Source: Candidatus Avoscillospira avicola
Lineage (GTDB): Bacteria; Bacillota; Clostridia; Oscillospirales; Oscillospiraceae
DNA length: 64,000 nucleotides
Reading direction: 5' to 3'
NCBI GenBank assembly: GCA_018712245.1
Contig: DVHE01000007.1
Span: forward strand, 1 to 64,000
Part shown: positions 3 through 11,307 of the stretch, one piece after another
Position numbering within the stretch: position 1 is the stretch's first letter
Layout: the number at the start of each line of letters is the position of its first letter
Notes under the pieces: generated by a model
Seen by the model: the letters and a program-made list of their open reading frames with translations, nothing else
Database searches by the model: none
What the model was told of the DNA's origin: nothing
Made by a program: the position numbers and the translations under genes

Positions 3-290
3 GTTAAGCGTAAGGAAAATGGATATCGTGTCTATACAGACGAGGACATTAAAAGGTTAAAGGTTATACGTGCCCTGCGCTGTGCTAAATATTCTTTGGA
101 AGCAATTTTGCGGATGCTCCGCCAACTATCTAAAAATCCAGATCTGGATATTAAAGCTGCGTTGAATACCCCCTTACAGTCGGAGGATATTATTTCAGTT
201 TGTGACCGTCTAATTATATCTTTGACGACGGCAGAATACAACGCAAAAAAAATCATGGAAATGTTACAAGAAATGAAGGAAAATTATTAA
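3..290 (+). CDS. MerR-like transcriptional regulator, 3' fragment (gene starts upstream of window)
   Basis: Open frame from the window edge: VKRKENGYRVYTDEDIKRLKVIRALRCAKYSLEAILRMLRQL, MerR-type HTH. Confidence 0.75.
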   Translation, partial: VKRKENGYRVYTDEDIKRLKVIRALRCAKYSLEAILRMLRQLSKNPDLDIKAALNTPLQSEDIISVCDRLIISLTTAEYNAKKIMEMLQEMKENY

Positions 291-356
291 AACCCTCCAT
301 TTTGCCACCAGTCTTTGAACTGGTGGTATTCTTTTTCTATCAAAGGAGGTATAGTG

Positions 357-1082
357 ATGAAAACAATTATCCAAGTGCGGGGGCTTACAAAAGCCTATGG
401 TCAACTTCCAGCGGTAGATCATGTGAGTCTATCGGTAAAGGCAGGTACCGTGTTCGGTCTGCTGGGGGCAAATGGAGCTGGAAAAAGCACAACGATTGAG
501 TGTATTTTAGGAACAAAGAAAGCTGACAGCGGTGAAATATCTATTCTTTCTCTTGATCCTCAAAAGGACAGACGCCACCTTTTCCAAAGAGTTGGTGTTC
601 AATTTCAAGAGTGCGATTATCAACCAGAGATTAAAGTTTCGGAGCTGTGCGAAGAAACCGTTTGTCTGTATAAGAACCCGGCTGACTGGAAAAAGCTGTG
701 TACACAGTTTGGACTTGCGAACAAAACAAATTCAGCAGTCAAAAGTTTGTCCGGGGGAGAACGTCAACGGCTTTTTATCGTACTTGCCCTAATTCCCAAT
801 CCGCAGGTTGTTTTTCTGGATGAATTAACCACCGGACTTGATACAAAGGCCCGGCGTGATGTTTGGAAAATCCTCGAAGGACTAAAAAATCAAGGAATGA
901 CAATTTTCCTAACTTCTCACTTTATGGATGAAGTTGAGGCCTTGTGTGACGAGATTTGCATCCTCAAAAAGGGTCGAATTGCCTTTTATGGGACGATCAT
1001 GCAGGCCATAGACAAGAGTGGTTGCGAAAAATTTGAGGATGCGTATTTAGCACTTGCTGGTGAGGAGGTCGATGCGGAATGA
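357..1082 (+). CDS. ABC transporter ATP-binding protein
   Basis: Walker A GANGAGKST, signature LSGGE, Walker B VVFLDE; RBS AAAGGAGG before ATG 357. Confidence 0.95.
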   Translation: MKTIIQVRGLTKAYGQLPAVDHVSLSVKAGTVFGLLGANGAGKSTTIECILGTKKADSGEISILSLDPQKDRRHLFQRVGVQFQECDYQPEIKVSELCEETVCLYKNPADWKKLCTQFGLANKTNSAVKSLSGGERQRLFIVLALIPNPQVVFLDELTTGLDTKARRDVWKILEGLKNQGMTIFLTSHFMDEVEALCDEICILKKGRIAFYGTIMQAIDKSGCEKFEDAYLALAGEEVDAE

Positions 1083-1822
1083 GGTCTTTGGCTGTGCTCT
1101 TAAAAAATGAGCTGAAATTGAATATCCGAAATATGAACATGGTAATCTTTGCTGTTATATTGCCTTTGGTAGTGCTGGTGATACTTGGCTTTCTGTACGG
1201 GACAAGTCCAGCGGCAGAAGGGGCTGGCTTTACGTTTTTGGAGCAATCTATTGGTGCGCTCTGTACCATTTCTATTTGCGCTGGCGGTTTGATGGGTCTG
1301 CCTTTGGTGGTATCGGAATACCGGGAAAGAAAAATACTTAAACGGTTCAAGGTAACTCCGATTAGCCCCATTATGCTTTTGATGGTGGAGTTTTTAATCT
1401 ATGTTATTTATTCTGCTGTTTCCCTTGCTACGATAATTCCTGTGGCGATGCTGTTTTGGAAAGTGGAGATGCATGGATCATGGATTGCTTTTCTCGGTAG
1501 CTGGCTTTTGACTATGGTTTCTACTTTGAGCATTGGAATGATGGTAGGAGGTGTTGCCAAAAACGCTAAGACTGCAAGTGTAATTGCCTGTATTTTATAC
1601 TTTCCTATGCTTATTTTTTCCGGCGCCACTTTACCGTTTGAGGTAATGCCGGAGACAATGCAAAAAATCGTACAGTTTTTCCCCATGACACAAGGCATCC
1701 AACTTATGAAGGCAACTTTTTTGGGAACACCATTCCATAATATATGGCTGCCTGTTCTTGTAATGCTTGGCGTTACTATTCTTTGCTTTGGTGTTGCAGT
1801 CAAGTGCTTTAAGTGGGAATAG
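1079..1822 (+). CDS. ABC-2 type transporter permease
   Basis: Overlaps the upstream ATPase by 4 nt; about six hydrophobic segments. Confidence 0.92.
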   Translation: MRSLAVLLKNELKLNIRNMNMVIFAVILPLVVLVILGFLYGTSPAAEGAGFTFLEQSIGALCTISICAGGLMGLPLVVSEYRERKILKRFKVTPISPIMLLMVEFLIYVIYSAVSLATIIPVAMLFWKVEMHGSWIAFLGSWLLTMVSTLSIGMMVGGVAKNAKTASVIACILYFPMLIFSGATLPFEVMPETMQKIVQFFPMTQGIQLMKATFLGTPFHNIWLPVLVMLGVTILCFGVAVKCFKWE

Positions 1823-1876
1823 AGAAATAGGGATCGTCACAATGAAACCGTTGTAGAAACGGCGATATTGGGGCCG

Positions 1877-1922
1877 AAAACGGCGGTTTTGAAATAACAA
1901 ATTTCAAGCCGCCGTTTTCTTT
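1877..1922 (+). terminator. Rho-independent terminator after ABC operon
   Basis: AAAACGGCGG...CCGCCGTTTT stem followed by TCTTTTC. Confidence 0.8.
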
Positions 1923-2160
1923 TCAAAAATGAGATTGCGGGGGGTGTGTTAAAGTCGCCCTTTTTTAAGGATACGGCGGTGTCCAGGAGGTATCGCCGTG
2001 TCCTTTTTCCCTTTCCATCCCCCTAACCTGTCAAAAAAAGCCCACCCGCCCAGCAGGATCAGTCCGGCGGTAGATGTGCAATTTGGCAGTACATAAATGG
2101 ATTTATCATTTCATGCGCTTGCGTGGCTTTGTGTCGCGCAGGCGTTTTTTGTTATCCGTA

Positions 2161-2183
2161 CTTCGAGACAAAGTGTCCCGAGG
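2161..2183. repeat. Dyad repeat copy 1: CTTCGAGACA-AAG-TGTCCCGAGG
   Basis: Arms TCGAGACA/TGTCCCGA identical to copies 2 and 3. Confidence 0.85.
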
Positions 2184-2267
2184 TACAGAGTGGCTCCCCA
2201 GGGTGCCGTTCCCCGCCGAGCCCCGTTTCGGTCACTTATTCACCCAACACCGAAACGGAGGTTTATT

Positions 2268-2690
2268 ATGGCTACAATCAATCTGAAAGATTTTTATTAT
2301 TGGTACACACGAGATCAGTTTATCGAGGTTTCTGACGAGGTGGCCGAAGTGTTTCTGGCCGATACCCGCCACGAGATGGCTTATCAGCGGCGGCTCTCCC
2401 GACACAAGGCGCAGTATTCTTTGGACTGTGATGACGGGATCGAATACTCGGCTTGCCTGCATGAGCCCACACCCCAGGAACTCTTGGAACGCATGGAACT
2501 CTTTATCCGTCTGTGGAACGCGCTTAACTCTCTGCCCGAAGCCCAGGGCCGCCGTGTGGATGCCTGTGTCATTCTTGGCAAGACCTATTCTGAAGTGGCC
2601 GAAGCGGAAGGCGTTCACGAAAGCGCGGTGCGGCGGGCTGTGGAGCGTGGTTTGGAGAACATGAAAAAATACTTAAAAAAATCTCGCTGA
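2268..2690 (+). CDS. RNA polymerase sigma-like factor (mobile-element type)
   Basis: C-terminal sigma-4-like HTH (KTYSEVAEAEGVHESAVRRAVERGLENMKKYL); ATG preceded by CGGAGG. Confidence 0.8.
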   Translation: MATINLKDFYYWYTRDQFIEVSDEVAEVFLADTRHEMAYQRRLSRHKAQYSLDCDDGIEYSACLHEPTPQELLERMELFIRLWNALNSLPEAQGRRVDACVILGKTYSEVAEAEGVHESAVRRAVERGLENMKKYLKKSR

Positions 2691-3024
2691 ACCAGTCCGA
2701 ATATCATCTAAAAATGTCTCGGTTTATGAGAGGAGGTTTTCTTTTCTCCGCAGATGAACAAGGGCGGCCCCGAGCGCAATCCGGGGAGCCAGGCGGCGGG
2801 TGCGCGGTGACCTTTCCTAAAAGAAAATGAGCGAACAACACCAGCGCCGCAAGTGGGCCGGGCTATCCCACGGCCACGATCCGGCAGTGGACAGGCTGGC
2901 TGCCTGTCCCTCCGGGCCGCCCTCTCGTCTGCGTGGGAGCGCCGCGCCGAGTATAGTTGTCTTTGGACAGGTCAAGGAAATGGGCGTGGCGTTCCCTAAA
3001 TTTTATCAAAGGGGGAATTAGAAA

Positions 3025-3225
3025 ATGAAATACGATCCCGTATTGGCCGCTATGCTGGCCGAGCCGTGGAGCAACAACGCCTGCCGGGGATATGTGATCT
3101 ATGCGATGGAAAACTGCGGTTTTTCCCCCGAGGACATCCGGCGCGTTGTCGGTGAGCTCCATTATGTATTTGATTTCAAAACGCTGGGCGAGGCCCAGCA
3201 CCATTACGAAAACGGCCCCTATTAA
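3025..3225 (+). CDS. Small conserved mobile-element protein (66 aa), function unknown
   Basis: RBS-like AAAGGGGG before ATG 3025; intact ORF between element genes. Confidence 0.65.
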   Translation: MKYDPVLAAMLAEPWSNNACRGYVIYAMENCGFSPEDIRRVVGELHYVFDFKTLGEAQHHYENGPY

Positions 3226-3248
3226 CTTCGAGACATTGTGTCCCGATG
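3226..3248. repeat. Dyad repeat copy 2: CTTCGAGACA-TTG-TGTCCCGATG
   Basis: Same 8-bp arms as copy 1. Confidence 0.85.
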
Positions 3249-3351
3249 TGAGGACAGGCCAAAGGGCGGCACTTGTGCAGTGCCGCCTTTTCGCGTTTCC
3301 CCACAGGACAACCGGGAGGCGTTTATCAATCTGAACAAAGGAGGTTTTACC

Positions 3352-3618
3352 GTGAGATTAACCGCACAGGAACTGGAACGAATGAAAAGCGTTGACATTG
3401 GCGCAGTCTCCCCCGAGTCTCTGCCCGATGTGAGCGGTATAACCTTTGATAATGCCCTTTCCCGAAAAGAGCGAGTCATAAGGTTTTTGCAAGTTGCCCA
3501 AAATCCGTACTGCTTCAGCATCGGCGGGATCGGCGTGAAAATGGAATTTACAGAAAACGGGCCACCCCTCCAGGATATTTTGACGGACTTTTTGATCCGT
3601 CAAAAAAGCGGGCTGTAA
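3352..3618 (+). CDS. Small mobile-element protein (DUF6870-like?), GTG start
   Basis: AAAGGAGG 8 nt before GTG 3352; RLTAQELERMKSVDIGAVSPESLPDV. Confidence 0.6.
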   Translation: MRLTAQELERMKSVDIGAVSPESLPDVSGITFDNALSRKERVIRFLQVAQNPYCFSIGGIGVKMEFTENGPPLQDILTDFLIRQKSGL

Positions 3619-3640
3619 CTTCGGTTACGGCCTGCGCCTA

Positions 3641-3663
3641 CTTCGAGACAAAATGTCCCGAGG
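3641..3663. repeat. Dyad repeat copy 3: CTTCGAGACA-AAA-TGTCCCGAGG
   Basis: Same 8-bp arms as copies 1 and 2. Confidence 0.85.
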
Positions 3664-3734
3664 CGGAGCCATCCTTGTTGTCCCTACGGGACAGAGGTAT
3701 AATATAAATGTAATGTGATAGGGAAGGAGGAACA

Positions 3735-5417
3735 ATGCCACGAACAAAAAACAGAGGGGTTCAACAGAGTTTCTCCCCCTCTTATACAATCCGGCGCTGG
3801 CGGCTGGGCGAATATATCCGGCTTTCCAAAGAAGATTTGAAAAAAGGAAAAGACGATAGCAACAGCGTTAAAAACCAGCGCGACCTGCTGAATGACTTTT
3901 ATCAAAAGCACATCGAGGAATTTGAAAGCGTTTCCGAATATGTGGACGATGGACACACGGGAACGGATGCCAACCGCGAAGATTTCCAACGGCTCCTGGC
4001 CGATGTAATGAGTGGGAAAATCAACTGTGTTGTGGTAAAAGACCTTTCCCGTTTTGCCCGGAATTACAGCGATGCGGGAAGTCTGATTGACAACCTGTTT
4101 GTACAGATGGGTGTCCGGTTTATCAGTCTTGCGGAAAATGTGGATAGCTTTACAAACCCGGATAGCGTTTCTAATATTATCGTTCCGATAACAAATGTAA
4201 TGAATGATAACTATTGCTATCAGACTTCAAAGAAAATCCGCCAAGTATTTGACTATAAGCGGCGCAACGGTCAATACATCGGAGCTTTCGCTCCTTATGG
4301 GTACATTAAACACCCAAAAGACAAACACAAACTGATTGTTGATCCAGATGCTGCTGAAACAGTCAAACTCATTTTCTCGTTATTCTTGCAAGGAACATCA
4401 AAACGGGCCATCGCTCTGCATTTGAATGAGCATGGCGTCCCGAGTCCCTCTGCGTATAAACTACTCAAGGGCCTGCCTGTTTCTACAAGAGGTTATGACG
4501 AACCTATGTGGGGCGGCAGGATGATCCATGCAATACTTACCAATCCCACTTATACCGGGGATTTGGCACAAGGCCGTAGCCGGGTAAAAAGTTATAAGGT
4601 ACACCAGATTGAAACGGTTCCCCGTGAAGAATGGGTAGAGGTGGCTGGAACACATGAAGCCATTATCAACTATGAAACCTTTGACAAGGTGCAGGCTCTG
4701 TTAAAGCGTGACACCCGAACTTCTCCCGAAGGCCGGAAAGTCCATTTGTTCAGCGGCTTTCTGAAATGTGCCGATTGTGGCCGGGCAGTCACTCGTTGCG
4801 TTAGTAAAAACAATCATGTGTATTATGCCTGCTCTACTTACAAAAACCGTTCCCGGACAGCCTGCACCATGCACTCAATCAAGCATGAACGGCTGGAGGC
4901 CGCTGTTCTATTCGGTATTCAGTACCAGGTACATTTAGCCGTTTCTTATTCTGAGGCGATTACCTGTATCAATTCGGCTCCAACGAAAAAAAGCCAGTCT
5001 TTCAGACTGGACGAGCTGATTACCACAAAGGAAAAGGAACTGGCGAAAATCACCCGCTACAAGCAGTCTCTTTATCAAGACTGGAAAGACGGGGAAATTA
5101 CCCAGCAGGATTATCGAAGCATGAAAGCCGACTATGAACGGCAGGTAGCGGCCCTCTCTGATGTGTTGGAACGGTTGACCGCTGAACGGGCAGAACTGGC
5201 AAACGGTGTTGACAATGAGCACCCGGCGCTGGTGGCCTTTATGAAATACCAGAACATCGACAAACTAACCCGGGAGGCTCTCATTGATCTTGTAGACCAT
5301 ATCAAGGTTTACGAAAATGGAAATATCAGCGTTAAATGCAAATTCGCTGATGAATTTCGTAAGATAGCAGAATACATTGAAATCAACACTTCTGAAATTC
5401 CCGCCGTGGCGGGCTGA
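3735..5417 (+). CDS. Large serine recombinase (TnpX/TndX-like)
   Basis: Resolvase-type catalytic domain (YIRLSKED...VVKDLSRFARNY), recombinase domain, zinc-ribbon CADCGRAVTRCVSKNNHVYYAC, coiled coil. Confidence 0.95.
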   Translation: MPRTKNRGVQQSFSPSYTIRRWRLGEYIRLSKEDLKKGKDDSNSVKNQRDLLNDFYQKHIEEFESVSEYVDDGHTGTDANREDFQRLLADVMSGKINCVVVKDLSRFARNYSDAGSLIDNLFVQMGVRFISLAENVDSFTNPDSVSNIIVPITNVMNDNYCYQTSKKIRQVFDYKRRNGQYIGAFAPYGYIKHPKDKHKLIVDPDAAETVKLIFSLFLQGTSKRAIALHLNEHGVPSPSAYKLLKGLPVSTRGYDEPMWGGRMIHAILTNPTYTGDLAQGRSRVKSYKVHQIETVPREEWVEVAGTHEAIINYETFDKVQALLKRDTRTSPEGRKVHLFSGFLKCADCGRAVTRCVSKNNHVYYACSTYKNRSRTACTMHSIKHERLEAAVLFGIQYQVHLAVSYSEAITCINSAPTKKSQSFRLDELITTKEKELAKITRYKQSLYQDWKDGEITQQDYRSMKADYERQVAALSDVLERLTAERAELANGVDNEHPALVAFMKYQNIDKLTREALIDLVDHIKVYENGNISVKCKFADEFRKIAEYIEINTSEIPAVAG

Positions 5418-5465
5418 GTCCCGCTACATCCTTTCTGGCAGTGTGTTTTCCTAATAAGATTTAAT

Positions 5466-5876
5466 CATATCGTATTTGCACCGAAGTACAGAAGGAAAGT
5501 ATTTTTTGCAGAAAAACGGGAAGCAATTAGAGAAATATTGAGGATATTATGCCAGTGGAAGGGTGTAGAGATCATAGAAGGAGAGGTATGCCCAGATCAC
5601 ATCCATTTACTAGTAAGTATCCCACCCAAAATGAGCATATCGGGATTTATGGGATATCTAAAGGGGAAAAGCAGCTTAATGATATTCCAGAAGTTCGGGA
5701 ATATGAAATTTGCATATCGGAACAGGGAATTTTGGTGCAAAGGGTATTATGTAGATACGGTGGGAAAGAACACAAAAGCCATAAAAGAGTACATAGAGAA
5801 CCAGCTAAAGGCAGATAGAGAAAGCGATCAGTTAAGCATATACGATCCGCGCGACCCGTTTACGGGTAGCAAGTAA
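5466..5876 (+). pseudogene. tnpA: IS200/IS605-family transposase TnpA, 5'-truncated
   Basis: In-frame HIVFAPKYRRKVFFAEKREAIREILRILCQWKGVEIIEGEVCPDHIHLLVSIPPK...DPRDPFTGSK; N-terminus missing before HIVF. Confidence 0.9.
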
Positions 5877-6058: not shown

Positions 6059-8458
6059 TTACTCCAGGTGGAGATACCAGGCAAAGCCGTAGGGATACAG
6101 CTCCACATGGTCCAGGGCGTCCGCCTCTCCACCGTAGACCAATTCCTTGTAGGGACCCTTCTCCCAGCTGGTGGCTGAGGCAAATTCCCGGCTGAAGTTG
6201 AAGAAGGCGATGAGCTTGCGGCCCTGGTACCACCGGCCAATGCCCAGCACATGGGGGTTGCCGGTGTCGAAGGTCCAGACGTCTGCCCGGGTGTCAAACA
6301 CCGGCTCCGCGGCCCGAATCTCCTCCAGATGGCGCAGCCCCTGGAACTGCTTGCCCTGGCGCGTGGTCTCGTCATGGCGCATTTCTGCCAGATCCCACTG
6401 GAAGTTGCCGCGGTGGAGGTAGCGGCTGTCGTCCCACTTCTCGCCGTCCTGGTGGTAGGAGTAGTCGTTGAGCTGGCCCACCTCGTCGCCGCTGTAGAGG
6501 ACGGGGATGCCGCTCTGGGTCAGCATCCAGGCGTGGAGCATCAGGTCGCAGGCCACGGCCCGCTCCAGCTTGGTCGAATCCCGCTCAAATTCCGCGGCTT
6601 CGACGCCGCAGAGAGAGGCGGTGGTGCCGCACAGCCGGGCGTCGCCCAGGCGGGGATCGTCGTTGTAGAGCTCGCCGCGGCTGTTGCTGCCGGGGAAGCG
6701 CCCGGTGAAGTAGTCGTTGAGGTACTTCTTGTGGGGCACCTCGGCAAAACCGAAGCGGCCATAGAGCCAGGGATAGTCCAAGCCCCAGCCGATGTCATCA
6801 TGGCAGCGGAGATAGTTGAGGAACAAAAAGTCGCGGGGCAGGGCGCAGACGCTGTTCATCTGGTGGCGCAGCAGTGCCACATTGCCGGTGGCCAGGGTGT
6901 GCCAGGTAGTGGCCATGGTGGTGACGTTGTAGAGCATATGGCACTCGGGCTTCTCCGGCGTGCCGAAGTAGGGGGCCACCTTGGCCGGCTCCATGACGAC
7001 CTCGCCCAGCAGCAGCACGCTGGGGCAGACGATCTCGGCCACCATGCGCATCATCCGCACCAGGGTGTGGACCTGGGGCAGGTTGCGGCAGGTGGTGCCC
7101 AGCTCTTTCCAGATGTAGGGTACTGCGTCGAGGCGGATCACATCGATGCCCCGGTTGGTGAGATAGAGGAGGTTTTCGGTCATGTCGTTGAAGACCGTGG
7201 GGTTGGCGTAGTTGAGGTCCCACTGGTAGGGATAGAAGTTGGTCATGACCACCTGTTGGGCATCCTCCAGCCAGGTGAAGCTGCCGGGGGCCGTGGTGGG
7301 GAAGACCTGGGGCACGGTCTTTTCAAACTCCCGGGGAATGTCCCAGTTGTCGTAGAAGAAGTACCGATCCCGGTAGCCTGGCTCTCCGGCCCGGGCCTTG
7401 CGGGCCCACTCGTGATCCTCGCTGGTGTGGTTCATCACAAAGTCCAGGCAGAGGCTCATGCCCTTGGCCCGGCAGGCGTCGGCCAGATGCTCCAAATCGT
7501 CCATGGTGCCCAGCTCCGGCTGCACCTTGCGGAAGTCAGCGACGGCATAGCCGCCGTCGCTGCGGCCCTTGGGGCTCTCCAGCAGGGGCATCAGATGGAG
7601 ATAGTTGACGCCGCACTCGCTGAGGTAGGGGAGCTTCTCCTCCACCCCGCGGAGCGTGCCGGCAAAGGCATTGACATAGAGCATCATGCCCAGCAGATCC
7701 CGGCGGCGGTACCAATTCGGATCGGCTTCCCGCAGGGCATCCTGGGCGCGGAGGTCCTCCTTGCGATCCGCCCAGCAGCGGCGCAGCATGGAAATAAAGT
7801 ATTCAAAGGCGCCCATGTCGTTGTGGTAGAGCTCGCAGTAGAGCCACTTCAGCTCGTCATAGTGCCGGGCCAGGCGCCGTTCAAAGACATCGTCCTTGGC
7901 GGGAGCGGGCGTTTTGACGGGAGCAGCTGCTTTCGCGGGGGTGGACTTTTTGGCAGGCGCGGCGGCTTTTGCGGGAGCGGGTTCTTTTACGGGAGCAGCG
8001 GCTTTTACGGGAGCGGGCTCTTTCATGGGAGCAGCTGCTTTGACGGGAGCGGGTTCTTTCACGGGAGCAGCCGTTTTCACGGGAGCGGGTTCTTTCATGG
8101 GAGCAGCTGCTTTGACGGGAGCGGGTTCTTTCACGGGAGCAGCTGCTTTGACGGGAGCGGGTTCTTTCACGGGAGCAGCCGTTTTCACGGGAGCGGGTTC
8201 TTTTACAGGAGCAGCCGTTTTCACGGGAGCGGGTTCTTTTACAGGAGCAGCCGCTTTGACGGGAGCGGGTTCTTTTACGGGAGTGGCGGTTTTCACGGGA
8301 GCGGGCTCTTTCACGGGAGCGGGCTCTTTCACGGGAGCAGCCGCTTTCACCGGAGCAGCGGCTTCGGCAGAGACATTGACAGGCTTCTCGCTGGACGCCG
8401 CCTTTTTTGCCGGTGCATGTGCGGCCTTGGCGGCAGTCTTTTTCTTTTTCTGAGTCAA
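6059..8458 (-). CDS. Amylosucrase (GH13) with long N-terminal xxxPVK repeat extension; TTG start
   Basis: GH13 motifs (DFVMNHTSEDHEW, GIDVIRLDAVPYIWKELGT, LLLGEVV, YLRCHDDIGWG); AAGGAGG before TTG. Confidence 0.88.
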   Translation of the reverse strand: MTQKKKKTAAKAAHAPAKKAASSEKPVNVSAEAAAPVKAAAPVKEPAPVKEPAPVKTATPVKEPAPVKAAAPVKEPAPVKTAAPVKEPAPVKTAAPVKEPAPVKAAAPVKEPAPVKAAAPMKEPAPVKTAAPVKEPAPVKAAAPMKEPAPVKAAAPVKEPAPAKAAAPAKKSTPAKAAAPVKTPAPAKDDVFERRLARHYDELKWLYCELYHNDMGAFEYFISMLRRCWADRKEDLRAQDALREADPNWYRRRDLLGMMLYVNAFAGTLRGVEEKLPYLSECGVNYLHLMPLLESPKGRSDGGYAVADFRKVQPELGTMDDLEHLADACRAKGMSLCLDFVMNHTSEDHEWARKARAGEPGYRDRYFFYDNWDIPREFEKTVPQVFPTTAPGSFTWLEDAQQVVMTNFYPYQWDLNYANPTVFNDMTENLLYLTNRGIDVIRLDAVPYIWKELGTTCRNLPQVHTLVRMMRMVAEIVCPSVLLLGEVVMEPAKVAPYFGTPEKPECHMLYNVTTMATTWHTLATGNVALLRHQMNSVCALPRDFLFLNYLRCHDDIGWGLDYPWLYGRFGFAEVPHKKYLNDYFTGRFPGSNSRGELYNDDPRLGDARLCGTTASLCGVEAAEFERDSTKLERAVACDLMLHAWMLTQSGIPVLYSGDEVGQLNDYSYHQDGEKWDDSRYLHRGNFQWDLAEMRHDETTRQGKQFQGLRHLEEIRAAEPVFDTRADVWTFDTGNPHVLGIGRWYQGRKLIAFFNFSREFASATSWEKGPYKELVYGGEADALDHVELYPYGFAWYLHLE
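7895..8362 (-). repeat. 468-bp in-frame tandem repeat: 26 hexapeptides xxxP(V/A/M)K, mostly alternating EPAPVK / (A/T)AAPVK (36-bp higher-order period)
   Basis: Read directly from the nucleotide and protein sequence. Confidence 0.95.
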
Positions 8459-10281: not shown

Positions 10282-11307
10282 ATGGAGATAAAAAAGAACG
10301 CTACATACGGCGATATTGCCAAATACACCAAGTTCTCAAAAACCACGATCTCCCGTTATTTCAATGACCCCGACACGTTGGCACCGGCCAGCCGGGAGAT
10401 TATCGCCAAAGCACTGGTCGACCTCGACTATCAGGAAAACAAGGTGGCGCGGATTTTAGCCAACGGCCAGACGGAATTCATTGGCGTGATTGTGCCGGAC
10501 TTCTATCACCACTTTTTTTATGAGATTCTCAACCGTATTCTCGGAACTTATGAGAACAATGGCTATAAATTTCTGGTTTTTGTAGGCAACAAAAAGGGGG
10601 AGATGGAGCGGCGGTACATCCAAGAGCTGATGGCCTACCAAATCGAGGGGTTGATTGTCCTCAGCCACACCCTCCCTTCCCAGGAATTGGCCGAACTGCA
10701 GATTCCCGTCGTCACCATTGAACGGGAGGACCAGTTTGTCTCCAGCGTCAACACCGATAACGAATTGGGCGGCCGGCTGGCTGCGGCGCATCTGGCGGAG
10801 CTGGACTGCGACGTGCTGATTCACATCAACTCCCATTCCTCGGAAGGTATCCCGGCTTACGACCGCGTCTCTGGCTTCTCCCAATACTGCCGGGAAAACG
10901 GGCTCCGCCATCAGGTGATCATTCGGCCTCTGGACGTCTCCTATGAGGCGGACAAGCAGACCCTGACGGAAATTCTGGAGCAAGTGGAGGCGCAGTATCC
11001 GGGCCAGCGGAAGGGAATCTTTATTTCCAACGACACCTTGGCCAACGGCTTTTTGAATGTCTTGTTCCACAAATTCGGCTGCCTGCCGTCCACATATCGC
11101 CTCATCGGCTTTGATGACTCCCCGGCTTCCCGGGCGGCAGTTGTGCCCATCAGCACCGTGGGTCAGCGGCTGGAACAGTTGGCGCAAGAGGCCATGGCGC
11201 TGCTGTCCGACCAAATCCGGGCAAAGAAAAGCGGCGCTGCTTCCAGCGCCCCCGTACATCGGGTGGTGGAGCCGGTGCTGATCCGGCGGGATACCACTGC
11301 CGGCTGA
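10282..11307 (+). CDS. LacI-family transcriptional regulator
   Basis: N-terminal HTH TYGDIAKYTKFSKTTISRYFNDPDTLAPASREII followed by sugar-binding domain. Confidence 0.93.
   Translation: MEIKKNATYGDIAKYTKFSKTTISRYFNDPDTLAPASREIIAKALVDLDYQENKVARILANGQTEFIGVIVPDFYHHFFYEILNRILGTYENNGYKFLVFVGNKKGEMERRYIQELMAYQIEGLIVLSHTLPSQELAELQIPVVTIEREDQFVSSVNTDNELGGRLAAAHLAELDCDVLIHINSHSSEGIPAYDRVSGFSQYCRENGLRHQVIIRPLDVSYEADKQTLTEILEQVEAQYPGQRKGIFISNDTLANGFLNVLFHKFGCLPSTYRLIGFDDSPASRAAVVPISTVGQRLEQLAQEAMALLSDQIRAKKSGAASSAPVHRVVEPVLIRRDTTAG

Follow-up and report, generated by a model that had tools for sequence, protein, structure and literature searches.

Chromosomal parS sites can be located in or near parB. 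Distributed ParB sites are already known from conjugative elements, with KorB, the IncC plasmids (12–14 sites) and the copies on SGI1 as examples (PMC10954446). The KorB protein of RK2, a CTP clamp of the ParB family, silences promoters as far as 1.5 kb away from its binding sites. These OB sites are found at 4–10 bp or at 45 to >1,000 bp in front of promoters (PMC11790492). A survey of orphan ParBs encoded by mobile elements also exists (PMC12704722).

The stretch of DNA analysed here (the window, 64 kb) contains the right end of a serine-recombinase ICE, and the dyads found there are probably parS- or operator-like sites of the ParB-family product of this ICE's first gene, as members of a distributed set. 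KorB/OB of RK2 is alike in that a ParB-family protein of a conjugative element is accompanied by about 12 spread palindromes, some near promoters (PMC11790492, PMC10954446); the many ICE sites are similarly spread over the conjugative element, near promoters or gene junctions. Unlike OB, the ICE site has a different sequence and length (25 bp with an N3 centre), no ParA was found, and the element is a Gram-positive ICE read from sequence. IncC ParB with SGI1 shows a comparable number of distributed sites and related copies on mobilizable elements (PMC10954446), but IncC has ParA and a par operon, whereas the ICE is without ParA and its site sequence is different. With chromosomal ParB/Spo0J-parS and Noc-NBS, the ICE system shares ParB_N with a putative HTH after it, a palindromic site and a predicted specificity at the equivalent helix position (PMC7383237). 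In contrast to those 16-bp fixed-sequence sites, the 25-bp site here has at least 40 natural arm variants, each in its own parB. A literature search that covered only a minority of subscription papers returned no account of this ICE array, of the fixed in-parB palindrome or of a code of at least 40 variants.

The scan of the window located TCGAGACA-N3-TGTCCCGA at 2163–2181 (spacer AAG), 3228–3246 (TTG) and 3643–3661 (AAA) and nowhere else; allowing up to three mismatches on both strands added no match beyond these three sites (0.57 such matches are expected by chance, with a maximum of 3 in 100 shuffles). The arms are the same in all three copies, the spacers vary, and pairing is complete except for one A/C position, which confirms the three-copy dyad described in the initial annotation. 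The sites exist where it placed them, although each had been drawn 2 bp too far on either side, and its distance of about 70–105 bp upstream of three genes is measured as 86 bp (sigma-like gene, ATG 2268), 105 bp (DUF6870 ORF, GTG 3352) and 73 bp (recombinase, ATG 3735). Once the flanks are included, the true length of the dyad is 25 bp (Table 1), and the A/C arm of the window represents an off-consensus form of a perfect palindrome that is present in related elements. Dyad 2 overlaps by one base the stop codon that ends the 66-aa ORF; no family match was found for this ORF.

Table 1. Coordinates of the putative ParB sites and neighbouring features in the window
Feature	Position	Strand	Remarks
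Dyad 1, ACTTCGAGACA-AAG-TGTCCCGAGGT	2160..2184	+	Putative ParB site upstream of the sigma-like gene; equivalent place in related ICEs
Sigma-70 region 4-like regulator gene	2268..2690	+	
66-aa ORF	3025..3225	+	Adjoins dyad 2 in related ICEs too
Dyad 2	3225..3249	+	Putative ParB site upstream of the DUF6870 gene; equivalent place in related ICEs
DUF6870 gene, GTG start	3352..3618	+	
Dyad 3	3640..3664	+	Putative ParB site upstream of the recombinase promoter
Promoter-like TTGTTG-17-TATAAT	3675..3703	+	Conserved; relatives' sequences compared by eye
Large serine recombinase gene, ICE right end	3735..5417	+	

The window starts at the start of its contig (G000:C68) and thus shows no more of the ICE than its right end. 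The left end coincides with the end of contig C75, where the first gene is parB-like and carries a fourth dyad copy in its coding sequence. When the outer flanks of C75 and C68 are joined, they form one open IS200-type transposase frame (window 5417–5876; L006 around 10993–11062), and the two ends are therefore those of a single ICE that interrupts the transposase gene. The middle of this ICE was not found in the assembly. The ParB fragment of the genome, at the opposite end of the same ICE, is 67% identical to the ParB of a relative and is truncated by the contig end before the HTH; its helix is predicted from the relatives. The ICE cargo at window positions 3–1822 comprises an ABC-2 type efflux pair and a MerR-family regulator truncated where the contig begins. 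Outside the ICE, a large ORF on the minus strand (6059–8458) has a long N-terminal repeat of the APVKEPAPVKTA type, presumably followed by an alpha-amylase-family domain.

Complete relatives of the ICE carry about 13–15 palindrome copies each, from parB, the first gene, to the recombinase, with a median spacing of 1.5 kb. The underlying motif in these relatives is the perfect palindrome ACTTYGGGACA-N3-TGTCCCRAAGT, and a dyad search of five ICE regions that used no prior input ranked GGGACA-N3-TGTCCC first among the recurring dyads. The gene order, taken from G003 and G004, is parB, DUF7768, ArdA, DUF3801, VirD4, Maff2, TrbL, methylases, PrgI, a VirB4-like ATPase, NlpC/P60, DUF4315, CD1107-like, NikA/MobC-like, relaxase, XRE regulator, cargo, sigma-like, DUF6870 and recombinase. 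A scan of genome contigs returned at least 120 stretches with the motif, mostly from gut Clostridia. Genomes with such ICEs, some of them with two elements, contain 14–24 motif matches, which are clustered in the elements and rare in the remaining 3–5 Mb. Exact matches among 391 Clostridia genomes are few, and two of them lie within distant parB homologues.

Mapping the copies relative to genes in related ICEs, as the initial annotation had proposed, showed that the sites recur at the same places with a bias towards junctions. The palindromes occupy largely matching gene junctions in each ICE; of about 70 sites, 58 were counted after a strand-dependent filter, and 37 of these are intergenic compared with 7.9 expected (p about 1.5e-18). 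Among the in-gene copies of the array, 19 of 21 are close to a gene end, and one array site lies within the ICE parB itself. Translated in one particular frame, the site gives the peptide GQSVPKS in proteins that are otherwise unrelated (methylase, NlpC/P60 and DUF4315), which indicates constraint at the DNA level. The same maps bear on an origin of the dyads as REP or miniature transposon copies, perhaps tied to the neighbouring IS200-type transposase. An IS200/Y1 transposase gene does flank the ICE, but it is the interrupted insertion target; moreover, the places of the dyads are kept in related ICEs, copies within one element do not share duplicated flanks, and the motif matches are mostly confined to mobile elements. 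This origin was rejected on these grounds and is extremely improbable.

Sites of the one-sided A/C type dominate both ends of the ICE, and internal sites mostly carry GGGACA in both arms (arrays in L133–L142). The orientation of the A/C-type sites tracks transcription in 122 of 126 cases. The initial annotation had also offered an RNA hairpin, and as leader RNA hairpins (attenuators or processing signals) the dyads could form a stem of 8–11 bp with a 3-nt loop, with a terminator-like stem just before dyad 1. However, the orientation of the 122 sites puts an A.C mismatch into the mRNA and disrupts the stem, though the opposite orientation would keep G.U. Some copies also lie in coding regions, and the arms change in step with a DNA-recognition helix (see below). 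We rejected the hairpin on these grounds as highly unlikely; an Rfam search of the dyad region returned nothing relevant.

In all relatives compared, dyad 3 is located at a fixed 10 bp upstream of TTGTTG-17-TATAAT (variants TTGCTG and TTGTCG) before the recombinase. A consensus promoter scan around the dyads gave no useful site, with the recombinase promoter below threshold. The initial annotation had read the three copies as a shared operator coordinating element genes. The constant gene-relative places, the intergenic excess and the position of dyad 3 near a promoter agree with this reading and would suggest a regulatory role. Missing from it were the scale of about 13–15 sites, the actual palindrome and ParB as the probable binder.

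The ParB of a relative matches PF02195 (ParB_N) with an E value of 9.2e-17; a putative HTH follows, which in a profile alignment with the HTH of Spo0J gives a second domain of low score (12 bits). The ICE ParB sequence contains GHRR and NSNKQR motifs, which bear on a possible CTP clamp activity, and KorB is among its PDB relatives. The AlphaFold model, computed with 19 close relatives, has a mean pLDDT of 41 and is unusable. In one ICE ParB (L135:8099–9550), the N terminus is extended by a long segment in which RRGRPPK/RKGRPPK motifs resembling AT-hooks recur, next to the in-gene site. Among 61 genomes of the same family, the ICE-type ParB and sets of at least three sites occur in exactly the same two genomes.

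Because of the exact matches within distant parB homologues, ParB homologues from other elements were aligned, first 67 and then 107. In 94 of the 107 genes, the best palindrome of the entire gene is located at one aligned codon position, between ParB_N and the HTH, and the codon phase is identical in all 95 homologues that have at least 7 of 9 pairs at this position. In the first set, 59 of 65 alignable genes have at least 7 of 9 pairs there, compared with 97 of 19,000 codons elsewhere. The arms of these 59 in-gene palindromes fall into 40 distinct sequences, with the outer ACTT, the inner CA and the N3 centre mostly kept. A search for de novo dyads within at most about 10 kb to either side of the distant ParB loci found no further cognate copies or arrays, only the single in-gene site. 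The ICE ParBs are without an in-gene palindrome at this HTH-side position.

The arm bases covary with the ParB recognition helix. In ICE ParB numbering, the strongest specific signals link K344 to base 6 (z 15.3) and base 5 (z 9.5) and R330 to base 3 (z 13.5), followed by Y343 with bases 5–6 (z about 5). Nearly invariant alignment columns, which have inflated z-scores and little mutual information, were ignored, and a few other ParB columns score high with the innermost arm base without explanation. Helix residue x1 is aligned with the Arg of Spo0J GKARSTV, the place of R173 in Caulobacter ParB, a specificity residue proven by mutation (PMC7383237). Protein pairs with less than 45% identity that share both helix residues have 3.76 of 5 core matches, compared with 2.50 in shuffles, and none of 500 shuffles reaches 3.76. 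Within each identity band from 25 to 60%, sharing both residues gives 3.8–4.2 matches of 5 and sharing none gives 2.2–2.5. The helix effect holds at matched protein identity and therefore reflects more than shared ancestry alone.

The two helix types show the same correspondence for the sites within parB genes as for two kinds of ICE array: YK goes with GGGACA, and VK with GGGCCA or GGGTCA. GGGACA is present in all four counted YK ParBs that carry an in-gene site and, in the same region, in a fifth (L149). In the ICE ParBs, Y and K are invariant across 19 relatives and the array is GGGACA; in two ICEs with a VK ParB, the arrays are GGGCCA. The covariation strongly suggests that R330, Y343 and K344 set ParB-site specificity, and the ICE ParB very likely binds the putative sites. 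Recognition of the dyads as operators by another regulator, such as the XRE, sigma-like or DUF6870 protein, would fit the sites upstream of these regulator genes and the mobilizable elements that have sites and XRE genes with no ParB nearby. It does not account for sites within parB or for the covariation between arms and recognition helix in more than 90 ParB proteins, and we consider it improbable. The host genome also carries a second ParB of the family (L170, G000:C23, 3673–4668) with a YK helix, an in-gene GGGACA palindrome and a ParA-like gene upstream; two ParBs of similar predicted specificity may thus coexist in the host cell.

A gene-regulatory role of the ICE ParB is slightly favoured. 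A KorB-like silencer is preferred here because no ParA is found in the ICEs, dyad 3 lies by a promoter and the spacing of about 1.5 kb fits the reach of KorB; a role in partition or DNA compaction is the alternative. ParB would load at each site and then slide or spread as a CTP clamp. The clamp would coat the transfer region and keep RNA polymerase off promoters such as that of the recombinase, 10 bp from dyad 3. ParB would thus work from distributed sites, without ParA, as a KorB-like factor that silences or gates excision and transfer. It may also aid the maintenance of the excised circle.

If the sites were centromeres only, ParB would recruit a ParA of the host or of another element to partition the excised, replicating ICE, and regulation would be incidental. 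In 29 of 67 homologous loci of other elements, a ParA-like motif is located just upstream of a parB with the single in-gene site, and the 12–14 distributed ParB sites of IncC plasmids support partition (PMC10954446). In contrast, the ICEs examined are without the ParA of classical ParABS partition, a search of five ICE regions for a ParA-like Walker motif (KGGxGKT-type) being negative. The preference of the sites for gene junctions and the fixed 10 bp between dyad 3 and the promoter also argue against centromeres, and we regard this explanation as unlikely, though clearly more plausible than a different regulator.

With the KorB-like silencer as the preferred role, a tentative history of the family can be drawn. 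The mobile-element ParBs would have their own site in parB at a fixed position; in one ICE lineage, the site would have moved and multiplied to about 14 copies with loss of ParA, the partition protein would have become a clamp that silences the entire transfer region, and small mobilizable elements with copies of the site would respond to or ride on the ICE ParB. A minimal element (L254 in G419, 1300–5200) consists only of parB (YK helix, 56% identical), a 66-aa ORF, a short DUF6870-like ORF and a recombinase, with palindromes at two of the site places of the large ICE. Palindromes near ACTTCGGGACA-N3-TGTCCCGAAGT also occur, one to three each, in L259 (G160), L262/L263 (G070), L257 (G080), L258 (G306) and L255 (G436). 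These mobilizable or mobile elements include a Mob_Pre relaxase in L259, RepA_N in L257 and a serine recombinase in L259 and, by sequence, in L255; no ParB homologue was found near the palindromes in the stretches fetched. Judged from their site copies, mobilizable elements with palindromes possibly respond to or hijack the ICE ParB.

These results name a probable master regulator, a ParA-less ParB, together with its full site set for an ICE family that is widespread in gut Clostridia, and control of transfer thereby becomes testable. The embedded self-sites provide a natural ParB recognition code, in which the site would be predictable from two or three helix residues. The site copies on mobilizable elements suggest cross-talk between the ICE and its satellites, as for SGI1 and IncC.
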